Assembly: GCF_017355185.1 (NCBI RefSeq)
Contig: NZ_JADILJ010000026.1
Span: 1-48,851, forward strand
Source: Rathayibacter sp. SD072
GTDB lineage: Bacteria; Actinomycetota; Actinomycetes; Actinomycetales; Microbacteriaceae
Direction: 5' to 3'
DNA: 48,851 nt
The notes beneath the pieces are model-generated. The model searched no databases. It was not told where the DNA came from and saw only the letters and a list, made by a program, of their open reading frames with translations. Both the position numbers and the translations under genes were made by a program. Every line of letters begins with the position of its first letter. The first letter of the stretch is position 1. Shown piece by piece: positions 27,363 to 29,458 of this stretch.

Positions 27363-27743
27363 TCAGGTGACCGGGCCGGTCCACTTCTCGCCCGGGCCCT
27401 TGCCGATCGGATCGGGGAGGGGGGACGCCTCGCGGAACGCGAGCTGGAGCGTCCGCAGCCCGTCGCGCAGGCTCCGCGCGTGCATGTCGCTGATGTCGGG
27501 AGCTCCTGCGGTCACGAGCCCGGCCAGCGCGTTGATCAGCTTGCGCGCCTCGTCGAGATCGACCTGGGCGCCCGGCTCGTCGGCGAGTCCGCACTTGACC
27601 GCGGCAGCGCTCATCAGGTGCACGGCGGCGGTGGTGATGATCTCCACCGCGGGGACCTCCGCGATGTCGCGGGCGGCCTCCACGTCGGAGGAGTCGTCGG
27701 CATCGCCGAAGCGGCGGGCGTAGTCGTCGTCGTACTGGGCCAT
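27363..27743 (-). CDS. DUF1844 domain-containing protein
   Basis: The product has 126 residues. The conserved core (PAVEIITTAAVHLMSAAAVKCGL through DLDEARKLINALAGLV) matches DUF1844, a small family with no known activity that sits by infC in many actinobacteria. The N-terminus is acidic. The minus-strand ATG 27743 follows GAAGGA. It is divergent from the infC leader. Confidence 0.85.
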   Translation of the reverse strand: MAQYDDDYARRFGDADDSSDVEAARDIAEVPAVEIITTAAVHLMSAAAVKCGLADEPGAQVDLDEARKLINALAGLVTAGAPDISDMHARSLRDGLRTLQLAFREASPLPDPIGKGPGEKWTGPVT

Positions 27744-27840
27744 GGGTCCTTCGTTCGGTGGATCGGGCCCGTGCCGGGGCCTCGCGGAGGGGCTCCGGGA
27801 GGCGAGCGCATCCGCTCTGTCGCCCGGGCCGGGATTCTGC
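27744..27840. other. divergent intergenic region between the DUF1844 gene and infC
   Basis: No gene is seen. It must hold the DUF1844 promoter on the minus strand, but no clear -10/-35 pair stands out there. The plus-strand infC promoter begins at its right edge. Confidence 0.4.
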
Positions 27841-27846
27841 TAAGGT
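27841..27846 (+). promoter_or_regulatory. candidate -10 of infC-rpmI-rplT operon
   Basis: TAAGGT matches TANNNT, with a weak TGTCGC 17 nt upstream. Transcription from here would give a leader of about 255 nt. Confidence 0.45.
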
Positions 27847-27852
27847 GATGCG

Positions 27853-28107
27853 GGCTCCGAGGCATGTCCTCGGTTCGAAAGTGGAGATTCTCCCACCCGC
27901 GCTTGACCGCTTCACTAGGTTACCGGGTCTGAAGCACTCCGCCCTCGGTGACGAGGGCAGGACTGCGGCACCCGAGCGAAACCTCGGAGGCCGGGTCGCA
28001 GGGTGCGAGCACGTGCACGAGCACGTCAGGAATCTCCTCTCTCGGGATGCGCCGGATCAGAATCCGGCAGCAGAGCAGCTACTCACCGAGATCAGAGGAG
28101 AAACGCA
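27853..28107 (+). promoter_or_regulatory. structured leader of infC with anti-Shine-Dalgarno
   Basis: Five perfect hairpins are visible: CCGAGG/CCTCGG (27857-27873), GCCCTCG-GTGA-CGAGGGC (27941-27958, GNRA loop), CCGAG/CTCGG (27972-27987), ACGTGC-ACGA-GCACGT (28011-28026) and GCCGGAT-CAGA-ATCCGGC (28051-28068). TCTCCTCT (28033-28040) is fully complementary to the infC Shine-Dalgarno AGAGGAGA (28094-28101) and the last hairpin lies between them. This looks like a translational switch of the IF3/L20 autoregulation type. Confidence 0.6.
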
Positions 28108-28707
28108 ATCAGCGATCCCCGTACCAACGACCGAATCCGCGTCCCCGAGGTCCGCCTCGTGGGTCCCGCCGGAGAACAGGTCGGCGTCGTGAAAATCGAG
28201 GTCGCCCTGCGACTCGCGCAGGACGCAGACCTGGATCTGGTCGAGGTTGCTCCCAACTCCAAGCCTCCCGTCGCCAAGATCATGGACTACGGGAAGTTCA
28301 AGTACGAGCAGGCCCAGAAGCTCAAGGAAGCCCGTCGCAACCAGGCGAACACGATCCTCAAGGAGGTCCGTTTCCGCCTGAAGATCGACAAGCACGACTA
28401 CGAGACCAAGCGCAAGCGCGCCGAGGGCTTCCTCAAGGCCGGCGACAAGGTCAAGGCCATGATCCTGTTCCGCGGTCGCGAGCAGTCCCGCCCCGAGATG
28501 GGCGTCCGACTCCTGCAGCGCTTCGCGGAGGACGTGTCCGAGTTCGGCCAGGTCGAGTCCACCCCGACCATCGACGGTCGCAACATGGTGATGGTCATCG
28601 GCCCCCTGAAGAACAAGTCCGAGGCCAAGGCCGAGGCCAACGCGGTTCGCGCGGCTCGCCGCGAGGCCAACACCCCTGAGGAATCGGCCGAGGCCGAATC
28701 CGTCTGA
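28108..28707 (+). CDS. infC: translation initiation factor IF-3 (ATC start codon)
   Basis: IF-3 binds the 30S subunit and checks the start codon-initiator tRNA match. The product has 199 residues. Homology begins at [19 protein letters not shown] and continues through [12 protein letters not shown] and [16 protein letters not shown], with a C-terminal extension rich in Ala/Glu. The start is ATC 28108, 7 nt after AGAGGAG; no ATG or GTG is suitably placed. Non-AUG starts are a known autoregulatory trait of infC. A frame open back to GTG 28003 has no ribosome-binding site and no homology. Confidence 0.93.
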
Positions 28708-28803: not shown

Positions 28804-28998
28804 ATGCCCAAGATGAAGACCCACTCGGGTGCCAAGAAGCGCTTCAAGGTGACCGGCTCCGGCAAGGTCATGAAGCAGCAGGCCGGTATGCGCCACAACC
28901 TGGAGTCCAAGTCCAGCGTCCGCACCCGCCGCCTGAACCAGGACCAGGTCCTCGCCCCGCAGGACGCCAAGGTCGCCAAGAAGCTTCTCGGTCTGTAG
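28804..28998 (+). CDS. rpmI: 50S ribosomal protein L35
   Basis: The product is a 64-residue basic protein, start [20 protein letters not shown] and RRHNL-type middle ([10 protein letters not shown]), the usual L35 pattern. ATG 28804 follows AAGGAGAG. It is the second gene of infC-rpmI-rplT, 96 nt after infC. Confidence 0.97.
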
Positions 28999-29071: not shown

Positions 29072-29458
29072 ATGGCAAGAGTCAAGAGGGCGGTCAACGC
29101 CCACAAGAAGCGTCGCGTCATCCTCGAGCGCGCGTCGGGCTACCGCGGCCAGCGTTCGCGCCTGTACCGCAAGGCCAAGGAGCAGGTCACCCACTCCCTC
29201 GTCTACTCGTACCGCGACCGCCGCGCGAAGAAGGGCGAGTTCCGCCGCCTCTGGATCCAGCGCATCAACGCGGCCTCGCGTGCGAACGGCCTGACCTACA
29301 ACCGCTTCATCCAGGGCCTCGCCCTGGCCGGCGTCCAGGTCGACCGCCGCATCCTCGCGGACCTCGCGATCACCGAGCCCGCGACCTTCGCCGCCCTCGT
29401 GGCGACCGCGAAGAACGCGCTGCCCGCCGACACGTCGGCGCCCAAGGCCGCCGCGTAG
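29072..29458 (+). CDS. rplT: 50S ribosomal protein L20
   Basis: The product has 128 residues. L20 is an early 23S rRNA-binding assembly protein and represses infC operon translation in several bacteria. The segments [35 protein letters not shown] and [19 protein letters not shown] are family hallmarks. ATG 29072 follows AGGAAGAAAAAG. The C-terminus has a short Ala/Lys tail. The operon ends in a strong hairpin. Confidence 0.97.

Follow-up and report, generated by a model that had tools for sequence, protein, structure and literature searches.

A conserved RNA core in the infC leader of Rathayibacter and other Actinomycetes, a candidate autogenous attenuator of the infC-rpmI-rplT operon

The infC locus and its leader

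The window analysed here, a stretch of 48,851 nucleotides from Rathayibacter sp. SD072 (contig NZ_JADILJ010000026.1), carries on its forward strand the gene for initiation factor IF3 (infC, 28108..28707), followed by open reading frames for the ribosomal proteins L35 (rpmI, 28804..28998) and L20 (rplT, 29072..29458), the last being a candidate ligand of the RNA element described below. Relatives of infC showed 65-94% identity across the best segment, and rplT was located at most 1.2 kb past infC in 79/80 related loci, 59/60 loci sampled from the class and 29/30 loci from other classes; in the three loci where it was absent, the sequence ends shortly past infC. Membership of an operon with the L20 gene, a trait of L20 leaders, is shared by the infC leader.

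An extended -10 promoter element (TGCTAAGGT, 27838..27846, forward strand) lies immediately upstream of the leader, from which we infer a transcript start near 27852. A TGnTA-type motif was found in 46/53 Microbacteriaceae leaders (a raw count, without shuffle control), at a distance of 33-41 nt upstream of the conserved core in 45/46 and of 55 nt in one. The infC promoter lies about 100 bases away from the start of a divergent, minus-strand open reading frame of 126 amino acids (27363-27743), and DNA resembling this region was noticed by eye upstream of infC in several relatives.

Autoregulation by IF3 acts through a rare start codon of infC, which is a non-AUG codon, and this feature is common to that system and the window, in which infC begins with ATC (28108-28110). 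The sequence-only reading had raised this codon as a possible layer of control; the codon is indeed present, but it is ordinary, as the infC start is ATT in 23/81 and ATC in 58/81 leaders (L078 and L079 being counted after a one-codon correction) and ATC in 60/60 loci of the class sample. Unlike in IF3 start-codon autoregulation, the ATC or ATT start is therefore a class-wide property in the present samples, separate from the RNA element.

The leader upstream of infC is structured, as had been proposed, with a whole-leader fold z of -3.8 (0/200 shuffles were equally stable) and a z of -4.5 for the Shine-Dalgarno (SD) domain. All of its features are on the forward strand. Its 5' end forms hairpin P0 (CCGAGG/CCTCGG, 27857..27873), in which a compensatory change from A-T to G-C has occurred within the genus (CCGGGG/CCCCGG in L209, L215 and L216). 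This is followed by the conserved core or putative aptamer (27876..27930), defined by matches to two models (R1 and R2) and by covariation, and comprising an AAG (27879-27881), hairpin A (27881-27894), stem B (27895-27899/27924-27928) and an inner stem (27906-27908/27918-27920). Next is P3, a junction domain read from the sequence (27934..28006), in which GCACTC (27934-27939) and GGGTGC (28001-28006) enclose two inner hairpins. The P3 strands GCACTCC..AGGGTGC were recognised by eye in many Microbacteriaceae leaders among those listed and are present in 15 genus members with one T-to-C in L212 as the sole change; P3 has a probability of 0 in unconstrained folds.

The 3' end of the leader consists of CCGAG, an ATC bulge and the SD sequence AGAGGAGA (28086..28101), which are invariant in 15/15 genus members. 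The anti-SD 8-mer of the sequence-only reading was confirmed in its letters and coordinates, AGAGGAGA (28094-28101) being the exact complement of TCTCCTCT (28033-28040), and so was the 7-bp hairpin between the 8-mers (GCCGGAT-CAGA-ATCCGGC, 28051..28068), which is variable within the genus. The pairing is longer than had been described, as CTCGG (28041-28045) and CCGAG (28086-28090) extend it across a 3-nt bulge to 13 bp, and both 8-mers probably lie within the transcript. In dinucleotide shuffles, TCTCCTCT arose by chance in 0.4% of cases for 28005-28090, 0.7% for 27931-28090 and 1.6% for 27853-28090, and any 8-mer complementary to the SD and its flanks in 0.8% (28005-28090) and 3.9% (27853-28090).

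In the predicted fold the SD of the window is sequestered, with a mean unpaired probability of 0.09. In the comparison of leaders, the window was one of ten with strong hiding of the SD (unpaired probability at most 0.06), the others being nine relatives; such hiding was absent in part of Microbacterium, and the median predicted accessibility was 0.286 in Microbacteriaceae (n=53) and 0.344 elsewhere (n=105; P 0.049). In three leaders of Microbacterium type (L020, L021 and L083) the SD was predicted to be about 90% open; a terminator was not found in these leaders and their A*-like site (see below) is weak. Strong sequestration of the SD, as originally suggested, is thus patchy rather than family-wide, although complementarity between the SD and its upstream platform exceeds that of swapped leaders. 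The structured infC leader, with its sequestered SD, is probably regulatory.

A core shared by infC leaders of the class

Model R1 was derived from a MAFFT alignment (A1) of 29 hand-chosen seed leaders and model R2 from 94 matches of a second alignment (A2). The core consensus, read from the listed leaders of the 80 related loci, has a loop between AAG-N-GGA and UCCCACC and a variable stem-loop between UCCCACC and CGGGU; the marked conservation of these leaders lies here, upstream, and not at the SD. In a third alignment (A3; 61 rows, including 2 side matches outside infC leaders), 98% of cells were paired and both sides had changed in 8/12 pairs, amounting to 43 cells where shuffles gave 7.8, and in A2 both sides had changed in 6/12 pairs, with 49 cells against 6.7; these values exceeded all 500 shuffles, in alignments that were fitted to the model structure and are biased toward it. 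Alignment A1, which was not fitted to a model, contained 20 cells with both-side changes against 8.3 in shuffles, distributed over only 3 pairs, a number of pairs reached by 98/500 shuffles.

Among 80 related loci, 28 of which are seeds, 76 have an R1 match before infC at E<=0.05; the match is weak in L048, L068 and L077 and absent in L081. The class sample, 60 genomes hand-picked from 246 to cover 40 family labels and searched over 600 bases upstream of infC, contained the R2 core before infC in 59/60 genomes at E<=1 and in 57 at E<=0.005, the exceptions being L141 and L143, with weak matches (E of about 0.08), and L167, without a core; one of these genomes (G038) had also fed R2, and further overlap with the loci of the first set is possible. 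Among 30 hand-picked genomes from other classes of the phylum, in which the operon order is kept in 29/30 and the remaining locus ends past infC, a clear core was present in two (L186 and L190, the latter genome also being represented by L099, a contributor to R2) and a doubtful one in L183 (E 0.27). A draw of 296 genomes across the phylum gave 30 R1 matches kept as loci, of which 18, including that of the window, adjoin IF3 by tblastn. The 12 matches without IF3 nearby (E 4.7e-4 to 2.2e-3, a range shared by 4 of the 18) are probably due to chance. The core is therefore a typical feature of infC leaders in Actinomycetes, with rare occurrences outside this class.

Several individual loci depart from this distribution. 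The clear cores outside Actinomycetes (L190/L099 and L186) are isolated, and L081 and L167 have no detectable core despite core-bearing relatives, which may reflect losses or differences in assembly. L016, in a record titled Stenotrophomonas maltophilia P13, has a Microbacterium-like infC and leader, and the contig is probably foreign to the assembly. L053, in a record titled Curtobacterium sp. S6, has an ATT start and, by eye, a terminator-type leader like that of L065 (Rothia) and unlike those of other Curtobacterium, so its label may be wrong.

The window has no match in Rfam at gathering and nothing relevant at E<=10 in 27740-28260, and the Rfam L20 leader families were not matched at gathering in the window or in 40 other loci. 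RF02830 (Scr1601) was matched at gathering in 7/7 leaders of family f5 (L090-L093, L119, L120 and L123), taken, partly from this match, to be Streptomycetaceae, and in 0/33 other loci. In L091 (minus strand) the core (1501-1554) lies inside the Scr1601 match (1374-1599), IF3 adjoins, and the Scr1601 alignment ends at the U-tract of the leader terminator (GGGGCAUUUUUU), as expected of a terminated leader. Scr1601 resembles the present element in preceding infC, in having the same core and in its end at the terminator U-tract, but it is filed as a Streptomyces sRNA and its model gives no match to the leader of the window with the cut-off relaxed to E<=10. The earlier remark that no described actinobacterial element of this form was known to the reader needs amending in this respect, since Scr1601 is a Streptomyces-type version, although one filed as an sRNA only. 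Its Rfam type, 'Gene; sRNA', would agree with an independent small RNA gene that precedes infC incidentally. This is very improbable given the presence of the core before infC in 59/60 genomes, the co-evolution of its 5' strand with the platform upstream of infC (see below) and the end of the sRNA model at the leader terminator in L091; Scr1601 is probably a terminated infC leader and not a free-standing sRNA.

Element A* and its competing partners

The conserved unit of the leader is not the 8-mer but the core (27876-27930), which also contains a second, co-evolving partner of the anti-SD. Element A* (GAATCTCCTCTCTCGG, 28030..28045, forward strand), supported by swap tests, could pair with either the core or the SD. 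Its partner in the core, GGAGATTC (27883-27890), is the exact complement of GAATCTCC (28030-28037), giving 8 bp. This pairing and the 13-bp pairing of A* with CCGAG (28086-28090) and the SD (28094-28101) are mutually exclusive, GAATCTCC overlapping the anti-SD.

Shuffling of the core strand in 97 leaders gave a mean z of -0.94, with 24% below 0.05 and many near z 0, and in this weak test the best partner was often located on the 5' arm of a terminator (for example, 13 bp in L045). As the shuffles were thought to retain the G-rich make-up of the strand, the test was replaced by a swap test, in which duplex energies were calculated for each core strand against the platform of its own leader and against those of other leaders, and were compared after removal of row and column means. 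In 59 dereplicated leaders of the first set, the native mean was -12.56 kcal/mol and the swapped mean -10.86 kcal/mol (z -6.8, 0/20000 permutations), and the effect was present both in Microbacteriaceae (n=28, z -3.75) and in the others (n=31, z -3.85); controls gave z -0.45 for the reversed strand, 0.03 for the core 3' end and -1.78 (P 0.04) for the 5' flank. The class sample, with 55 dereplicated leaders, gave z -4.94 (0/20000 permutations), with controls at -1.68 (reversed strand, P 0.05), 0.76 (core 3' end) and -0.48 (5' flank). The 5' flank control of the first set and the reversed-strand control of the class sample are borderline, and shared ancestry was handled in these tests by dereplication only and not by a tree. 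The results support a core and a downstream element A* that appears to have co-evolved with the core 5' strand.

Both partners of the platform were detected within Microbacteriaceae, in which 32 dereplicated leaders gave z -2.56 (P 0.006) for SD:platform pairing and a stronger z of -4.0 for core strand:platform pairing, and in 28/50 leaders the sites that pair best with the core and with the SD have at least 4 nt in common. In the 15 genus members the SD and the core strand are invariant and A* is variable. Pairing of A* with the SD comprises 8/8 Watson-Crick pairs in 3 genomes; a further 2 have 8/8 pairs of which one is G.U, and in the other 10 an A.A mismatch leaves 7/8. The 8-mer is thus only loosely kept in the genus, with at least 7/8 positions in 15/15 members but an exact Watson-Crick 8-mer in only 3/15. 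Pairing of A* with the core comprises 8/8 in 3, 7/8 in 6, 8/8 with G.U in 2, 6/8 in 1 and 6/8 counting G.U in 3; four members have just 5 or 6 of the 8 positions in Watson-Crick pairs. Within the genus, A*:core pairing is thus less well kept than A*:SD pairing, which favours SD pairing and argues against strict core pairing.

Outside Microbacteriaceae, a terminator-like hairpin precedes infC in 40/47 leaders of L042-L110, against 7-15 in four rounds of shuffles. The class sample contained such a hairpin in 27/56 leaders (shuffles 7-11), with none found by the rule applied in 29/56, and Microbacteriaceae in 11/53 (shuffles 6-8); an intrinsic terminator before infC was not found in the leader of the window. 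The site that pairs best with the core strand lies in the terminator 5' arm in 28/47 leaders of the first set and in 19/56 of the class sample, all 19 belonging to the 27 leaders that have a terminator. These results support two putative kinds of output, in which A* would be the terminator 5' arm in many lineages and the anti-SD in Rathayibacter.

A simpler arrangement would be a static hairpin that sequesters the SD and sets a low, constant level of IF3 translation, with the upstream core serving as a stability or processing element. Such a hairpin would agree with a free fold that already hides the SD, with an SD:platform pairing better than swapped and with the better preservation of A*:SD within the genus. 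It would not account for the platform co-evolving more strongly with the core strand than with the SD across Microbacteriaceae (z -4.0 against -2.56), or for the frequent location of the partner site on a terminator arm outside this family (28/47; 19/56), and it is considered unlikely.

A candidate switch and its possible ligand

The preferred reading, to which we assign a probability of roughly 0.57 from comparative and folding evidence, is an autogenous attenuator of infC-rpmI-rplT, probably sensing L20 and acting in Rathayibacter by hiding the SD. During transcription, A* would pair first with the core strand, leaving the SD (here) or the terminator (in other lineages) open and the operon expressed. 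An operon product, most likely L20, would then bind and stabilise the core, and the A* thereby freed would cover the SD or, elsewhere, close the terminator, reducing the synthesis of IF3, L35 and L20. Repression by an operon product, with L20 as first candidate, and the direction of switching are both inferred.

Folding of truncated transcripts gave an A*:core probability of 0.99 at the four ends tried (28046 to 28095) and an A*:SD probability of 0.89 once the end was 28110, at which point hairpin A had a probability of 0.44, stem B of 0.28 and P3 of 0. In the full-length molecule without ligand, the SD is hidden in the minimum-energy fold, which is favoured over the A*:core state by 7.7 kcal/mol. 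As the SD is already hidden in this modelled fold, the ON state would need kinetics or an early ribosome, and ligand binding to the core would abolish the ON path provided by A*:core pairing.

Comparable control has been described elsewhere. The available text of PMC6097659 describes the B. subtilis L20-interacting RNA as an attenuator in the infC leader, whose terminator is stabilised upon L20 binding, with a narrow distribution in Firmicutes. It resembles the present element in operon, leader position and attenuation, but in the window the output would be hiding of the SD and not a terminator, and the Rfam L20 leader was unmatched here. In E. coli, according to the portion of PMC10931766 available, L20 represses the translation of rpmI-rplT through a pseudoknot and a hairpin, infC itself being outside its control; L20 thus acts on translation of its own operon, but the operator is a pseudoknot plus hairpin that excludes infC. 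L20 leaders are named from Gammaproteobacteria, Firmicutes and Deltaproteobacteria in excerpts of PMC7247131. The infC 5' UTR of M. tuberculosis is 326 nt long, with a UTR/CDS ratio of 2.6, rising to 4.9 in stationary phase, and excerpts of PMC3207917 mention the B. subtilis L20 case and propose homology to the infA 5' UTR. This UTR is long and abundant, with reads exceeding those of the gene, and a core or switch is not described in those excerpts. Sharing of an element between infA and infC was considered for the present genome and rejected, as R1 gave a single match at E<=0.1, located at infC. No leader motif for L20 or infC in actinobacteria was described in the accessible text of the open-access literature searched, and the available parts of PMC8388888, PMC11109978, PMC11133741, PMC4137082, PMC7160235, PMC5146858 and PMC3765725 contained nothing on an actinobacterial infC leader.

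The identity of the ligand was approached through possible mimicry of ribosomal RNA. The core at first seemed to resemble positions 971-992 of E. coli 23S rRNA, the L20 site presumably lying in H40-H41. Mimicry of H40 was dropped after E. coli 23S rRNA and a stretch of A. oris 23S rRNA had been scanned for the plain motif, as the best scores, 10/13, were at shuffle level and not at H40. Two sequence patterns for the organisms' own 23S rRNA gave 0 hits, in 7 and 4 genomes. With the scan at chance level, mimicry rests on the loose criterion for L20 leaders of an AA dimer and two consecutive G-C pairs, as given in the available part of PMC7247131; AAG and GG/CC are invariant in A1 and the G-C pairs are almost invariant in A3, although features of this kind occur commonly. 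A switch of the proposed kind that senses L35, IF3, a metabolite or ribosome traffic in place of L20 would agree with the failure to find plain 23S mimicry and with the indirect case for L20, and 21/53 Microbacteriaceae leaders contain some SD-preceded open reading frame of at least 8 codons. A shared upstream open reading frame was not noticed by eye among the leaders listed, and the sensor of the B. subtilis operon is L20 (PMC6097659, available text), which makes sensing of another signal doubtful, if less so than a static hairpin.

The broader proposal extends the L20-sensing attenuator to a new class of leaders in most Actinomycetes, in which the ligand strand, the terminator 3' arm and, here, the SD would be near-copies in competition for a single partner strand, and in which Scr1601 is a terminated infC leader; we regard it as having an even chance of being correct. 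Near-copy strands that share one partner would allow the output to change from a terminator to hiding of the SD.

The 8-mer first observed in this leader is real, and the element is larger than was described, the 8-mer being one arm of a larger device. If the proposal is correct, it would define a feedback element of a ribosome-assembly operon in Actinomycetes, including antibiotic producers, and would account for an Rfam sRNA as well as for an infC 5' UTR that is both long and abundant. The question of the ligand is now directly testable. The leader would also represent a natural case in which a sensor keeps its competing strand as the output moves from transcription termination to the blocking of translation.
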